Positions 661 to 35,237 of a stretch of 35,435 nucleotides of DNA are shown here, one piece after another. Position numbers and translations under genes: made by a program. Below the pieces are notes generated by a model. That model searched no databases, was not told where the DNA came from, and saw only the letters and a program-made list of their open reading frames with translations. The DNA lies in NCBI GenBank assembly GCA_012520195.1, contig JAAYOS010000013.1:1-35435 (forward strand), written 5' to 3'. The stretch is from Clostridiales bacterium (GTDB lineage: Bacteria; Bacillota; Clostridia; Oscillospirales; JAAYOS01). How positions within the stretch are numbered: position 1 is the stretch's first letter; the number at the start of each line of letters is the position of its first letter.

Positions 661-2175
661 TTACATATCGGGCGACAAAGTAGCTTGAACACGCTCGGTG
701 TGACTGAGCTTTGCAAGCTCTTTAACTTTATCAAAGTTAAGGCCCGCCGCCATGGTGAAACGCTCACCGTATTCAGGATCTGCCAGATAGCAGTGTGTTG
801 CGTGGCGGTATTTAATGTTGACAGTTACACTGGCTATGTCTGTGACAGTGTTTTCGATCAAGATCTGCTTTTTGTCCTCAGCCAAAATACGCCACAGGTC
901 GCCGCCTGCACGGAAGCAGTCGTCGGTGGGGTCGTCCTTCGGGTCGTAGCGGTACATCGCACCTTCCAGGTCCAGTGGCGGCTCCATTACGCCCGGCTGC
1001 GCTGACCACAAGCCGTAGCTGTTCGGTGTGTACGCAGGCGTGCTGCCATAGTTGCCGTCAACACGCATTGCGCCATCACGGTGATAGTCACTTACCGGAA
1101 CTTTAGCACGGTTGACTGGAATCTGATTGTAGTTTACTCCTAGGCGGTAGCGCTGCGCATCTCCATAAGCAAAAAGCCTTCCCTGTAGGAATCGGTCCGG
1201 GCTAAACCCAATACCAGGCACAACATGTGCCGGTGTAAAAGCAGACTGTTCTACTTCTGCAAAGTAGTTTTCGGGGTTGCGGTTCAGTTCCAGAACACCT
1301 ACTTCAATAAGAGGGAACTCAGCTTTACGCCAGATCTTAGTTATATCGAATGGATTTTCGTAGTGGTTTTTTGCCTGCTCCTCTGTCATAATTTGAACAT
1401 ACATCTTCCACCTTGGATAGTCGCCGCGCTCAATAGCTTCGTACAGGTCTTTACCGTGATACTCCCTGTCCATTCCGTTGATTTTCGCTGCCTCCTCGTT
1501 TGAGAGGTTCTTTATGCCCTGCTGTGTTCTAAAGTGGAACTTACACCAAACACGCTCGTTATTAGCATTGTAGAACGAGAAGGTGTGCTCGCCAAAGAAG
1601 TGCATATTGCGGAATGATGCGGGGATTCCGCGGTCACTCATGACTATTGTGACCTGATGGAAGCACTCGGGGAGCAGCGTCCAGAAATCCCAGTTGTTTT
1701 GAGCGGACCGGCGGCCTGTTCGGGGATCGCGTTTGACAGCCCTGTTCAAATCGGCGAAGTTGTGCACATCTCTGATAAAGAAGGTGGGTGTGTTGTTTCC
1801 AACAAGATCCCAGTTGCCCTCCTCGGTGTAGAACTTGACAGCTACTCCCCGGATGTCACGCTCGCAGTCGGCAGCACCCCGCTCACCAGCAACGGTGGAA
1901 AATCGGATGAATACCTCCGTCTCTGCACCTGGCTGCAGGACTTTCGCCTTTGTGTACTTTGAAATGTCGTGGGTCACTGTGAATTTTCCGTAGGCCCCCC
2001 ATCCCTTTGCATGCATGCGGCGCTCCGGAATGACTTCTCGGTTAAAGTGGGCCATTTTCTCCATTAGCCACACATCCTGCATCACAACCGGGCCTCGAGG
2101 TCCTGCAGTAATGGAATTTTCATTGTCGGGTACTGGTGCTCCAACTTCATTTGTCAGCTTTTTGTATTTTTCCAT
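661..2175 (-). CDS. katA: Haem catalase (monofunctional, small-subunit type)
   Basis: Catalase converts 2 H2O2 to water and oxygen in the cytoplasm; no signal peptide is visible. The protein has 504 aa, the usual length of small-subunit catalases. Visible signatures are the distal-haem motif [15 protein letters not shown] with His55, [11 protein letters not shown] with the distal Asn at 127/128, RDPRTGRR at 150-156, [14 protein letters not shown] at 197-210, and the proximal haem ligand motif [14 protein letters not shown] with Tyr337. The Gly after that Tyr stands where many catalases have Pro. The ATG at 2173-2175 is preceded by AAAGGAG at a normal distance. It is transcribed towards flagellin, with the membrane-protein gene (2249-2911) 73 bases upstream on the same strand. 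I see no clear PerR box. Parts of the gene look richer in G+C than the flagellar genes (41 of 60 bases at 901-960), which would fit acquisition, but this is only a spot count. Confidence 0.97.
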
Positions 2176-11882: not shown

Positions 11883-11898
11883 ATTTTCCTCTTCCGCT

Positions 11899-11925
11899 AA
11901 AGTTTCAGGAAAATCTGCCGATTAG
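11899..11925 (+). promoter_or_regulatory. Strong sigma-28 (SigD) promoter candidate for flgB-flgC
   Basis: TAAA at 11899-11902, exactly 15 bases, then GCCGATTA at 11918-11925. The -35 matches fully and the -10 differs by one base from the enteric GCCGATAA and by two from the Bacillus GCCGATAT. It sits in the 65-base gap between fliS and flgB, with the flgB ATG about 20 bases downstream. This is the best sigma-28 match in the window. Confidence 0.82.
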
Positions 11926-11947: not shown

Positions 11948-12307
11948 ATGCTTTTTAACAGTCCCGATTTTAAGGTAATGCAGAAATCCATGGATATGCT
12001 TTGGCTTAAACAGAGAGTCATATCCAATAATATTGCCAATATTGAAACGCCCGGATACAAAGCTAAAGCAGTTTCTTTTAGAAATGTTCTCAATCACGAG
12101 TACTACAAAGAGAATCCGGACAAGATTGAAAGCTTGGAACCCGTCGTATCAACAGATACCTCTTCGTCAATTAGAATCGACGGAAACAATGTCGACCTCG
12201 ATAGAGAGAGTTTAGAGCTGTGGAAAACATATGCGCAGTATTCCTATCTACGTGAGAGAGTTTCAGGTCAGATAAAGAATATGCGCTACGTTATAAACAA
12301 CCTCTAG
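11948..12307 (+). CDS. flgB: Flagellar proximal rod protein FlgB
   Basis: FlgB is an exported rod subunit in the periplasm-equivalent space and wall. Its 119 aa is close to the family length (~130). The rod signature ISNNIANIETPGYKAKAVSF is at about residues 23-42 (the family's L.(A)NNIAN..TPgYka). The C-terminal helix LWKTYAQYSYLRERVSGQIK precedes the end MRYVINNL. AGGTAGGTG lies upstream of the ATG, immediately behind the sigma-28 promoter candidate. flgC follows after 38 bases. Confidence 0.95.
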   Translation: MLFNSPDFKVMQKSMDMLWLKQRVISNNIANIETPGYKAKAVSFRNVLNHEYYKENPDKIESLEPVVSTDTSSSIRIDGNNVDLDRESLELWKTYAQYSYLRERVSGQIKNMRYVINNL

Positions 12308-12345: not shown

Positions 12346-12780
12346 ATGTACTTTTTAAGCTCACTTAATATTGCCGGCTCTGCATTGACAGCAGAGAGGT
12401 TTCGTATGAATATTATCGCGCAAAACATTGCAAACCAAAATGTGACCCGAACCGAAGACGGCGATCCATACCGGAGAAAACAGGTGGTATTTGAAGAGCG
12501 GAACATGGATTTTGGTTCAGTCTTGAGAGGGTACAGTAATGCAACCGGGCAAGGTGGAGTTCGCGTTGCAGAAGTCGTGGAGAGCGACAAGCCCTTTGAA
12601 ATGACATATGATCCCAACCACCCGGATGCAAATGATGAGGGGTATGTCCTTCTGCCGAATGTAAACACATCGGAGGAGATGGTCGATTTCATGGCTGCAT
12701 CACGTGCCTATGAGGCAAATATTACTGCCCTCAACGTTGTGAAGAATATGGTAATGCAAGCGCTAGAGATTGGGAAATAA
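12346..12780 (+). CDS. flgC: Flagellar proximal rod protein FlgC
   Basis: FlgC is the second proximal rod subunit. The 144-aa size is typical. The N-terminus reads LNIAGSALTAERFRMNIIAQ then NIANQNVTR; the PxRRKQVVFEE region (residues 42-53) is the usual PYRRK.v.f. The C-terminal part has YDPNHPDANDEGYVLLPNVN (88-107), a hallmark of FlgC, and ends with the axial helix ASRAYEANITALNVVKNMVM. AAGGAGATATGATCC precedes the ATG. It is the last gene before a 651-base regulatory gap, where transcription restarts from a new promoter. Confidence 0.96.
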   Translation: MYFLSSLNIAGSALTAERFRMNIIAQNIANQNVTRTEDGDPYRRKQVVFEERNMDFGSVLRGYSNATGQGGVRVAEVVESDKPFEMTYDPNHPDANDEGYVLLPNVNTSEEMVDFMAASRAYEANITALNVVKNMVMQALEIGK

Positions 12781-12926: not shown

Positions 12927-12955
12927 TTGACAAACCTCTACACTTTGTTTATACT
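12927..12955 (+). promoter_or_regulatory. Near-consensus sigma-A promoter for the fliE-to-sigD operon
   Basis: TTGACA at 12927-12932 (perfect -35), a 17-base spacer, and TATACT at 12950-12955 (one mismatch to TATAAT). It would start a transcript near 12962, about 125 bases ahead of the riboswitch aptamer and about 470 bases ahead of fliE. The strength of the promoter suggests that control is exerted after initiation, through the riboswitch. Confidence 0.85.
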
Positions 12956-13085
12956 GTATTTACAGTTCAAGGATGAATTGGATATATGTTCCTTGTTTGT
13001 TCGACAACGTAGAGCATTATGAGTACCGTGCCAAGGAAGGTTAGGTTACTTTTCATAATCATTTTCGATTGTTTAACAATAATTT

Positions 13086-13165
13086 CGGCACAACTGTCGA
13101 AAGGCAGTGTCGCAAAGCTATAGGGTCTAAACTCCGCAAAGGCGGAGCATGACAGCCAGTTGCCA
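13086..13165 (+). promoter_or_regulatory. Cyclic-di-GMP-I riboswitch (GEMM-I) aptamer
   Basis: All hallmarks of the GEMM-I class are readable. P1 5' strand GGCA (13087-13090) pairs with 3' strand TGCC (13161-13164). One arm is ACTGTC (13093-13098), GAAA tetraloop (13099-13102), GGCAGT (13103-13108). The invariant CGCAAAGC is at 13111-13118, then TATAGGGTCTAA (13119-13130). The second arm is CTCCGC (13132-13137) with loop AAAG and GCGGAG (13142-13147). ATGACAGCCAG (13149-13159) supplies the tetraloop receptor side and the 3' junction. It lies in the leader between a sigma-A promoter and an intrinsic terminator upstream of fliE. In Clostridioides difficile a GEMM-I riboswitch represses the flgB flagellar operon by ligand-dependent termination; by analogy this should be an OFF switch. 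Confidence 0.94.
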
Positions 13166-13219
13166 TATATTCGTTTGTGATGGGTTTTGTTATTTAAACA
13201 GTTTGAAAACATGATTTTG

Positions 13220-13262
13220 AAGAGTGCCTGAGTACTTATTATCTTTGGCACTTTTTAGTTTT
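13220..13262 (+). terminator. Riboswitch-associated intrinsic terminator
   Basis: AAGAGTGCC (13220-13228) pairs with GGCACTTTT (13247-13255): nine pairs including one G-T, with an 18-base loop, followed by TAGTTTTTAAAAAA. It lies 55 bases after the aptamer and about 170 bases before fliE, so it is placed to abort transcription of the whole operon. Its right arm TGGCA (13246-13250) is complementary to TGCCA at the aptamer's 3' P1 strand (13161-13165), a possible antiterminator. Confidence 0.82.
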
Positions 13263-13431
13263 TAAAAAATTGAGCCTAATTAAGGAATATGCACCAAAAT
13301 ACAACGATAAAAGTAAATATATGGCACATAATATACAAATCATTATACAATAGTATTACATATATATAAAAAAGTTTAACTACGTATATACTTTCTGATG
13401 TACGTGGTGGGACAAGAGGAAGAGGTAAGGT
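13263..13431 (+). other. A+T-rich 5' untranslated leader of fliE
   Basis: About 170 bases of very A+T-rich sequence after the riboswitch terminator, without a credible gene. TATACT at 13387-13392 could serve as a -10 element but has no -35 at 17 bases, and TGGCAC near 13323 does not have a sigma-54 -12 element. The ribosome site AAGAGGAAGAGGTAAGG lies just before the fliE ATG. Confidence 0.5.
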
Positions 13432-13743
13432 ATGTATATTGTTCCAATCACTCAGATGTCGAGTCTCTCGACTTTAGAAAGCGTTACTCAAAATAGCGGA
13501 GATACACAAGCTTCGGGAGCGAAGCTGCCATTCTCCGAGGTAATCAAGGACGCTTACAGTAATTTATCTGAATTATCAGAGACAGCTTCAAACGATGCCT
13601 TCAATTTGGCACTTGGGCAAACTGACGATCTGCATACTATCATGATTAATGCCGAGAAAGCGGCAGTAGCTTTAGAGCTCACTGTTCAGCTTACGGCAAA
13701 AGCTCTCAATGCTTACAATGAGATCATGAGGATGCAGATTTAG
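13432..13743 (+). CDS. fliE: Flagellar hook-basal body protein FliE
   Basis: FliE is the small exported protein that joins the MS ring to the rod. The 103-aa length is typical. After a short variable N-terminus, the conserved core is visible: F-S-E-V-I-K-D-A-Y (residues 29-37; family F...l..al), LALGQTDDLHTIMINAEKAA (about 60-79, the family's G...dlh.vm.a.eka) and VALELTVQLTAKALNAYNEI with MRMQI at the end. It is the first gene after the c-di-GMP riboswitch. A 79-base T-rich gap without a hairpin separates it from fliF. Confidence 0.94.
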   Translation: MYIVPITQMSSLSTLESVTQNSGDTQASGAKLPFSEVIKDAYSNLSELSETASNDAFNLALGQTDDLHTIMINAEKAAVALELTVQLTAKALNAYNEIMRMQI

Positions 13744-18949: not shown

Positions 18950-19011
18950 GTCAAAGACACTAAAAGCCTGGACTTGGTATTCTGAGTTTCAAATGAGAGG
19001 GGGTGGTGAGA

Positions 19012-20388
19012 ATGATGATCATTAATACAGGAGGCCGGTTAGTAAGTAAAGAGTCCGCAGTCTCAAGTGGAAAAATATTGCCCATCCCAGATCAATCAAC
19101 GGTAGAAACGGGAAAAACTGATAAGTCTGAGTTTCTTGACTTACTAAATTATCTTGGCTTTCCTTCTTATCTCAATATCGAAGTTGAGTTAGATTTGGAT
19201 GAATCCGTTGAGATGGATACTGAGCTGCATACTGAGCTGCATTCTATTCTACCCTCGAGTATTTTCGGCCTTGACCAGTACGAAGGCTTATCTGAGAGTA
19301 CTAGTAAGATCGGTGGGGCTGATTATCGGAAAGATAAGCAGGAAACTATGTGGGATGTCCTTTCAAGCCTTAATCCGGCTGCCATTCTTTCTAGAGAGTA
19401 TCGGTCGATAGAGTATGATCAGGCCCAAAGCGGGGAGATGCAGCCCAATCCAATCATGATAAGTACAGGGGAAAAGACATCCGAAATGTCTGGAATCCTA
19501 CTGGAGCATCAGACGCAGTTGCAGGAGACAACCAAATCAGGTTTCACCGTTGAAATAGATCTAAACGAAGAAACGAATCTCAACGTCGAAGCAGGGGCGG
19601 ATAAAGGTAGAAGCATCTTCACAGAACTAGTAACCGAGGTGATAGAGACTGAAACTCAGGTGGACGCTGAAGCGCTGTTTAGGGTTGAGAACCTTAGAGT
19701 AGGAGCCCTCAGGGAACAGCCAGATGCCAAAGACAGGACGTCAGGCCCAGTCTCTTCGGAGTTAGAAGCACGAAATCCCGTAAGAGTTCCTGAGGAGGAA
19801 CAGTTTACAATAAGCTCAACTACTTCTACATCTGCAACAGTACCACAACCGATAGGGCTAGAAGGCCAGACTAAGAGCGAGTTTTTGACGGAGGACGGAG
19901 CCGACTATTCAACTGCTGATGTTATTAGCCAAGTTGAGCAGAAGTTCATTTCCGGTATCAACGATAAGGGCATAAACGAGTTTTCGTTTTCTCTAAAACC
20001 GGACGGGCTTGGCTCAATCAAAGTCAAGTTGCGTGAGAAGGAAGGTCTGATACAGCTTGAGCTAGTCGCCGAGAGAAATGAGACCGAACGGATTCTAAGC
20101 TCTGAGATAGAGCAGCTGAGACAGACTCTCAAAAATCACAATGTGGATTTGATAAAAGTAACTACCCTTGATAACTTGCAGGAACCCCAGCATCATGACG
20201 ACGGATTCGGGGAGTCAGCAGGTTTTGCATCACAAGAACAGATGCAGTGGAATTCTAGAGATAGAAGAAACAGCATGGCTTACCGAACAGATATCCTTGA
20301 CGGCAGTGAAGAAAGAGTAAACAAGCTTGGTCCTGACTACCGTACAAATCGAATCTACAGTTCAGGACATCTTGAAATCATTATCTAG
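19012..20388 (+). CDS. fliK: Flagellar hook-length control protein FliK
   Basis: FliK measures hook length and switches export from hook to filament substrates. The 458-aa protein has a long, poorly conserved, acidic and Ser/Thr-rich N-terminal part (1-300), as usual, and the conserved Flg_hook C-terminal domain at about 315-380: ELRLKPDGLG-type core here as FSFSLKPDGLGSIKVKLREK, then GLIQLELVAERNETERILSS and LRQTLKNHNVDL. A 12-base duplication (ACTGAGCTGCAT, about 19220-19243) produces T-E-L-H twice. Start choice: a GTG at 19003 is in frame but overlaps the ribosome site GGGGGTGG; the ATG at 19012 is preferred. flgD's ribosome site directly follows the stop. Confidence 0.9.
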   Translation: MMIINTGGRLVSKESAVSSGKILPIPDQSTVETGKTDKSEFLDLLNYLGFPSYLNIEVELDLDESVEMDTELHTELHSILPSSIFGLDQYEGLSESTSKIGGADYRKDKQETMWDVLSSLNPAAILSREYRSIEYDQAQSGEMQPNPIMISTGEKTSEMSGILLEHQTQLQETTKSGFTVEIDLNEETNLNVEAGADKGRSIFTELVTEVIETETQVDAEALFRVENLRVGALREQPDAKDRTSGPVSSELEARNPVRVPEEEQFTISSTTSTSATVPQPIGLEGQTKSEFLTEDGADYSTADVISQVEQKFISGINDKGINEFSFSLKPDGLGSIKVKLREKEGLIQLELVAERNETERILSSEIEQLRQTLKNHNVDLIKVTTLDNLQEPQHHDDGFGESAGFASQEQMQWNSRDRRNSMAYRTDILDGSEERVNKLGPDYRTNRIYSSGHLEIII

Positions 20389-34439: not shown

Positions 34440-35237
34440 ATGTCAGATCGAGCAGTACTTGTTGATAGACAAGCTCATACTAATAACCAGACGGACGCTG
34501 CTGACTTAATGGATAGATATAGGGAGACAGGTGATATTGAGCTTAGAAATGAGCTTATACTTCGATATCAATACATTGCAAGGACTGTCGCCCAGCAAAT
34601 GAGAGGAATTACCTCAGGGTATGCCGAGGTTGAGGACATTGTCAATCAGGGTGTGCTTACGCTTATTGATTGTGTTGAACGGTATGACCCTGAGAAGGAG
34701 GCCAAATTTGAGACCTATGCCTTCCTCCGTGTGCGCGGTGCAATAATCGACTTTGTGAGAAAACAGGACTGGCGGCCAAGAAGGGTCAGGAAGAACGCAA
34801 AGGACGTTGCAGCCGCTTATGACCGCCTTTCAAATGAGCTGATGCGTGAGCCCACAGACAAGGAGATTTCCAAGCATCTAGGCATTACCGAGAAAGAGCT
34901 GCAAAGACATTACGTCGAGCAGTCCAGAGCACTCGTCCTGTCATTTGAGAACCTTTTGGAGAACGCAGCACAGGCAGAGGTGCTACAATCTACTGGGGAC
35001 GTAGAGGAACATCCCGAACAGAATCTGTTTAAGAAGGAGCTTGAGAGAGAGCTGGCAGATGCAATAGATTCTCTGACAGAAAGAGAGAGGCTAGTAGTGT
35101 CCCTCTACTACTATGAAAACCTCAAGCTCGCCGAAATCGCAGAGGTGTTAGGTGTCAGCGAATCTAGAGTATCTCAGATCCACGCAAAAGCAATTAATAA
35201 AATGACTACCATTATGGACAAGTACATGAAGGGGTGA
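34440..35237 (+). CDS. sigD: Flagellar sigma factor SigD (sigma-28, FliA/WhiG family)
   Basis: This directs RNA polymerase to late flagellar and chemotaxis promoters (TAAA-N15-GCCGATAT type), such as those proposed at 3112 and 11899. The 265-aa protein holds region 2 with YAEVEDIVNQGVLTLIDCVE, RYDPEKEAKFETYAFLRVRG and AIIDFVRKQDWRPRRVRKNA (about 60-120), region 3 with LSNELMREPTDKEISKHLGI, and region 4 with LTERERLVVSLYYYENLKLA and EIAEVLGVSESRVSQIHAKA. It is the partner of FlgM (3206-3523). ATG at 34440 after AAAGGGGTGAT. Its place at the end of the riboswitch-controlled operon ties late-gene expression to c-di-GMP level (inference). Confidence 0.97.
   Translation: MSDRAVLVDRQAHTNNQTDAADLMDRYRETGDIELRNELILRYQYIARTVAQQMRGITSGYAEVEDIVNQGVLTLIDCVERYDPEKEAKFETYAFLRVRGAIIDFVRKQDWRPRRVRKNAKDVAAAYDRLSNELMREPTDKEISKHLGITEKELQRHYVEQSRALVLSFENLLENAAQAEVLQSTGDVEEHPEQNLFKKELERELADAIDSLTERERLVVSLYYYENLKLAEIAEVLGVSESRVSQIHAKAINKMTTIMDKYMKG

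Follow-up and report, generated by a model that had tools for sequence, protein, structure and literature searches.

The window, the whole stretch of 35,435 nucleotides analysed here, carries a flagellar gene cluster in which fliD, fliS, flgB and flgC are followed by a riboswitch and then by fliE and fliF. The features concerned are given below, with profile scores beside the cut-off of the family.

9281: fliD (profile search)
11508: fliS (profile search)
11898-11924, + strand: sigma-28-type promoter ahead of flgB, TAAA-N15-GCCGATTA, 11/12 consensus match
11948-12307, + strand: flgB, for a proximal rod protein, ahead of the switch (TIGR01396, 96.3 bits, cut-off 59)
12346-12780, + strand: flgC, for a proximal rod protein, ahead of the switch (TIGR01395, 175.4 bits, cut-off 102)
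12927-12955, + strand: sigma-A type (housekeeping) promoter, TTGACA-17-TATACT, 11/12 match
12962-13076, + strand: pre-aptamer leader of 115 nt, conserved in a second species of the genus
13077-13167, + strand: c-di-GMP-I (GEMM-I) aptamer (RF01051, 71.9 bits)
13087-13091, + strand: aptamer 5' strand GGCAC, predicted antiterminator partner of 13224-13228 (folding)
13219-13264, + strand: intrinsic terminator, stem 13219-13228 / 13247-13256 and T-runs (folding and comparison with the second species)
13432-13743, + strand: fliE, first gene behind the switch (TIGR00205, 73 bits, cut-off 30)
13823-34417, + strand: fliF (start 13823) to flhA (NCBIfam and Pfam matches)
34440-35237, + strand: sigD, encoding a sigma factor of the FliA/WhiG family, behind the switch (TIGR02479, 233 bits, cut-off 190)

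Gene order by profile searches bears out a first-pass annotation of this DNA, which had put the switch after flgBC and before fliE. The block from fliF to flhA consists of fliF, G, H, I, J and K, flgD, flg_new, flgE, flbD, motA and B, fliM and Y, cheY, fliO, P, Q and R, and flhB and A; 'fliK' (19003-20388) is without an NCBIfam match and is named from its position only. Past the window, on the same strand, lie two FlgE/F/G-type rod genes after sigD, which are probably flgF and flgG, and cheC, cheD and fapA. The interval from fliE to fapA holds 28 genes in 26,146 bases, in keeping with the earlier estimate of more than 20 genes, sigD among them, downstream of the switch. The largest gap among the listed genes is 82 nt, and because of this close spacing the genes are likely to be read as one transcript. 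Just past fapA a convergent gene (G000:C25:39657-40922; L152:5658-6923, - strand) encodes an EAL-HDOD protein whose EAL domain is partial. Another gene inside the flagellar region is that of a catalase (window 661-2175, - strand), with flagellin on one side and flgM on the other.

The RNA is of a familiar kind. RF01051 matches the window at full length (model 1-87 of 87) with 71.9 bits against a cut-off of 35, about twice that threshold, and an E value of 2.2e-12; it is the sole Rfam family above its cut-off within the window. The first-pass annotation had recognized a GEMM-I element and proposed this search, and the identification holds. Its limits of 13086-13262 located the aptamer correctly, but began about nine bases late and took in the terminator at the far end. 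The GAAA tetraloop on P2 and the conserved junction CGCAAAGC are present in the window aptamer (RF01051 alignment) and in the second species. Alignment by eye, in what we take to be the Vc2 numbering, gives G (13088), A and C as the counterparts of Vc2 G20, A47 and C92. With a G at the first of these positions, as in the c-di-GMP type, and with GGDEF (three strong) and EAL proteins encoded in the genome (profile searches), it is very improbable that the ligand is another cyclic dinucleotide, e.g. 3',3'-cGAMP (GEMM-Ib type). The idea draws on the small number of bases that set the GEMM-I ligand and on the base equivalent to Vc2 G20, which tunes selectivity (PMC9262584). The window element is an ordinary GEMM-I riboswitch in an uncommon position in a flagellar cluster; its sequence predicts that it binds c-di-GMP, and it alters nothing in the known workings of such switches. 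A second RF01051 match in the same genome (contig C90, L002) is divergent from a gene pair resembling VTC-domain and DUF4956 proteins (named by eye), and a cyclophilin-type lipoprotein gene lies downstream of it. A GEMM-I element of a genome of the same family (G003; C43, L009) has the same VTC-domain/DUF4956-like setting.

The comparison with related genomes that had been suggested for the placement finds promoter, leader, aptamer and terminator at the same site in a second species (G001). FlgC of this congener is 84% identical to that of the window, and its gene order is the same: fliD-fliS-flgB-flgC-[switch]-fliE-fliF. The within-genus comparison comprises two species, the window's genome and the congener, and counts of covariation are small for that reason. 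Promoter, leader, aptamer and terminator 5' arm align between the two; alignment is lost upstream of the promoter and downstream of the terminator. Searched at the DNA level against 245 genomes of the order, the promoter-leader segment gave a long match in the window's genus only.

The terminator stem is made of the arms GAAGAGUGCC and GGCACUUUUU around an 18-nt loop, and the second T-run reaches ~13263; a consensus terminator scan overlooked it because the loop is longer than 8 nt. When the complete RNA begun at the aptamer is folded, the terminator forms with P=1.00 in the window and 0.98 in the congener. The stem of the latter (AAUUGUGCC/GGUGCAAUU) differs from that of the window by two double-sided compensatory changes and two one-sided ones. 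Folding and compensatory changes support the terminator that had been noted behind the aptamer. The congener has an extra terminator-like hairpin ~12 nt past its aptamer (L033:2298-2314), and none was seen in the window. From the terminator to the start of fliE there are ~170 nt. It is improbable that an intact aptamer exerts its control other than via the terminator, through translation, processing or RNA stability, or that the element is a weakly functional remnant: the compensatory changes keep the terminator stem, fliE starts far downstream of it, and the unit is conserved across the two species when its flanks are not. Precedents exist for both ideas, as some C. difficile class I switches are not functional and Vibrio class I switches act without termination (PMC6366702).

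The sigma-A type promoter ends ~120 nt ahead of the aptamer, and the RNA of the switch would start at ~12962. The congener has the same hexamers with the same spacing in the same place. A leader peptide at ~12973-13043 was considered and dropped, since its reading frame is not maintained in the congener (by eye). The 115-nt leader is predicted to form a local hairpin (AUUAUGA 13016-13022 / UCAUAAU 13053-13059). Two of its strands can also reach across the aptamer: 13044-13066 could form a helix with 13205-13228 (linker and terminator 5' arm), and 13028-13032 could do so with 13247-13251 in the terminator 3' arm. The congener sequence allows both helices as well, with some compensatory changes.

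The switch is likely to be a transcriptional OFF switch heading a fliE-fapA operon. (i) Without ligand, the aptamer 5' strand GGCAC (13087-13091) would pair with the terminator 5' strand GUGCC (13224-13228). (ii) This antiterminator would let RNA polymerase continue into fliE. (iii) When c-di-GMP is bound, the aptamer would retain its GGCAC strand, so that the terminator at 13219-13264 could fold and transcription would halt before fliE. (iv) High c-di-GMP would in this way lower all downstream flagellar genes, including sigD. (v) Via SigD, it would also lower other SigD-dependent genes, e.g. the upstream flgBC. The OFF sign is favoured because terminator and aptamer can coexist, because of the C. 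difficile precedent and because of the usual effect of c-di-GMP on motility. In the folds the terminator and the aptamer have no bases in common, and both can form together. This is the arrangement of the Cd1 OFF switch, in which aptamer and terminator coexist and an antiterminator competes; the pilM ON switch differs in having an aptamer and a terminator that are mutually exclusive (PMC9262584). All seven functional class I switches of C. difficile are OFF switches and motility is lowered by c-di-GMP in that species, but class I switches can be ON, as is Bc2 of B. thuringiensis (PMC6366702).

Folding of an intermediate begun at the aptamer, with the terminator 3' arm absent, gives the antiterminator a probability of 0.96 in the window and 0.98 in the congener. 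Forcing the aptamer in the window intermediate costs 3.9 kcal/mol (-37.4 vs -41.3), a gap that ligand binding could cover. The window antiterminator consists of 5 bp and a weak extension, and 63 of 1000 shuffled sequences bind as well. Its counterpart in the congener is much longer, 9 bp plus 7 bp at -18.3 kcal/mol, with none of 1000 shuffles as good. Shuffled terminators reached the same pairing probability in 11 of 200 cases for the window and 13 of 200 for the congener. With the leader included in the fold, the antiterminator probability becomes 0.0 in the window, where the leader outcompetes it, and 0.57 in the congener. The lowest-energy full-length folds of both species pair the leader with the terminator arms, and on these models such folds would lead to read-through. 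The conserved leader may contribute a third, competing fold in which both arms of the terminator are captured. Since the choice to terminate is made while the RNA is being synthesized, equilibrium folding of the full-length RNA gives weak guidance on the ON or OFF sign.

The same leader pairings admit the opposite sign. The bound aptamer could help to close the helix between 13044-13066 and 13205-13228, so that c-di-GMP would block termination and raise expression of the fliE operon; this ON switch is considered unlikely. The enclosing helix is possible in both species and compatible with a folded aptamer. In a register set by hand that omits bulged bases of the window sequence, 18 of its 22 positions are paired in both, three of them with double-sided changes. 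The fit of the leader 5' arm to the terminator 3' arm in both species points the same way. Against this, folding has the leader form its own hairpin before the aptamer is synthesized, the enclosing helix has no obvious need for ligand, and the sign would be opposite to the usual one for motility. A free search for leader-linker duplexes gives a result weakly better than shuffles in the window (27/1000) and no better in the congener (363/1000); as it does not discriminate against shuffles, this search was set aside as evidence for leader-terminator pairing.

If the switch is OFF, as preferred here, its reach probably extends to the two genes ahead of it. The sigma-28 box before flgB is the sole + strand match of that quality in the window, where 0.17 would be expected by chance per 35-kb strand, and an equally scoring box stands ahead of flgB in the congener. 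This supports the sigma-28 promoter assigned to flgBC by the earlier reading. The further claim that the rod genes escape the switch does not hold in that form: only flgB and flgC lie upstream, and fliE and the two FlgF/FlgG-type genes lie behind it. Even flgBC are probably under indirect c-di-GMP control, because their visible promoter needs SigD, which is itself encoded behind the switch. FlgB and FlgC are required before hook completion frees SigD from FlgM. Some SigD-independent transcription of flgBC must therefore exist, and no SigD-independent start for flgBC was found in the window. Between flgC and the sigma-A type promoter no T-tailed hairpin was seen (by eye), so that flgBC transcripts may also enter the switch. 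Indirect c-di-GMP control through SigD has been proposed for fliC in C. difficile (PMC3649979). Should such a loop operate here, a single decision at the RNA level would determine the entire flagellar cascade, and flgB and flgC, though ahead of the switch, would be part of it.

Placement was surveyed by comparing FlgC positions with GEMM-I matches in three sets: the order, the 80 named genomes with the most similar FlgC, and 391 genomes from the class. The class survey is a sample rather than a census, and its fast filters miss weak matches; most class-level placements were judged by distance and orientation to flgC, and gene order was read by tblastn for some. Among the matches listed, nearly all flagellar GEMM-I cases precede flgB. 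These include G040 (two loci), G173, L062, L072, L087 and L108, and, by coordinates, G266, G299, G326, G353, G375, G397, G307, G404, G515, G311, G484, G600, G533, G601 and G577. A position between flgC and fliE is found, among the matches listed, only in the two species of the window's genus. In two further genomes, G274 (L156) and G312 (L162:3362-3448), of families f56 and f73, the switch lies between fliE and fliF (fliE frames read), at most ~50 nt from the fliE stop and followed in each case by a terminator-like hairpin. The G274 aptamer is overlapped at its 3' end by a short hairpin with a T-run, an arrangement that would fit an ON switch. G014 (L019), which belongs to a different family of the order, carries a GEMM-I element before motA. 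Genome G004, of the same family as the window, has flgB-flgC-fliE without a GEMM-I match.

The switch type is well known, and its position between flgC and fliE is unusual. A search of the literature yielded no paper on a GEMM-I riboswitch ahead of fliE, which says little because open-licence literature only was covered. The site of c-di-GMP control over flagellar genes is evidently not always at flgB, and in several lineages it is set deeper in the cluster. Placement after flgBC in three families of the class could reflect selection that leaves the first of the rod genes free from direct control by the riboswitch. It is a tentative proposition, and a somewhat doubtful one, that all parts hold together: a switch that splits the cluster, with flgB, flgC and sometimes fliE outside and the rest and sigD gated, a leader that provides a third fold, and a selected placement.

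The first-pass annotation had taken as its main point the split of the cluster together with the control of more than 20 genes, including a sigma factor, by one switch. The second of these is already known from the C. difficile flgB operon, where one riboswitch stands over a long flagellar operon that includes sigD (PMC6366702, PMC3649979). The C. difficile switch Cd1 (Cdi1_3) resembles the window switch in RNA family, sigma-A type promoter, coexisting downstream terminator, long gap to the first gene and position at the head of a long flagellar operon with sigD (PMC6366702, PMC3649979, PMC5386303). In C. difficile, however, flgB and flgC lie behind the switch, whereas in the window they lie ahead of it under a sigma-28-type promoter. 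An invertible flagellar switch follows the riboswitch in C. difficile, and the function of Cd1 is demonstrated where that of the window switch is predicted. The switches of G274 and G312 are likewise inside the cluster, after flgBC and before fliF, but they follow fliE, near its stop, with little or no room for a promoter of their own. L062 (Peptococcaceae UBA6096), nearest to the window in FlgC among the named genomes, shares the fliD-fliS-flgB-flgC neighbourhood; its aptamer belongs to the sister family RF03167, c-di-GMP-I-GGC, and lies between fliS and flgB.
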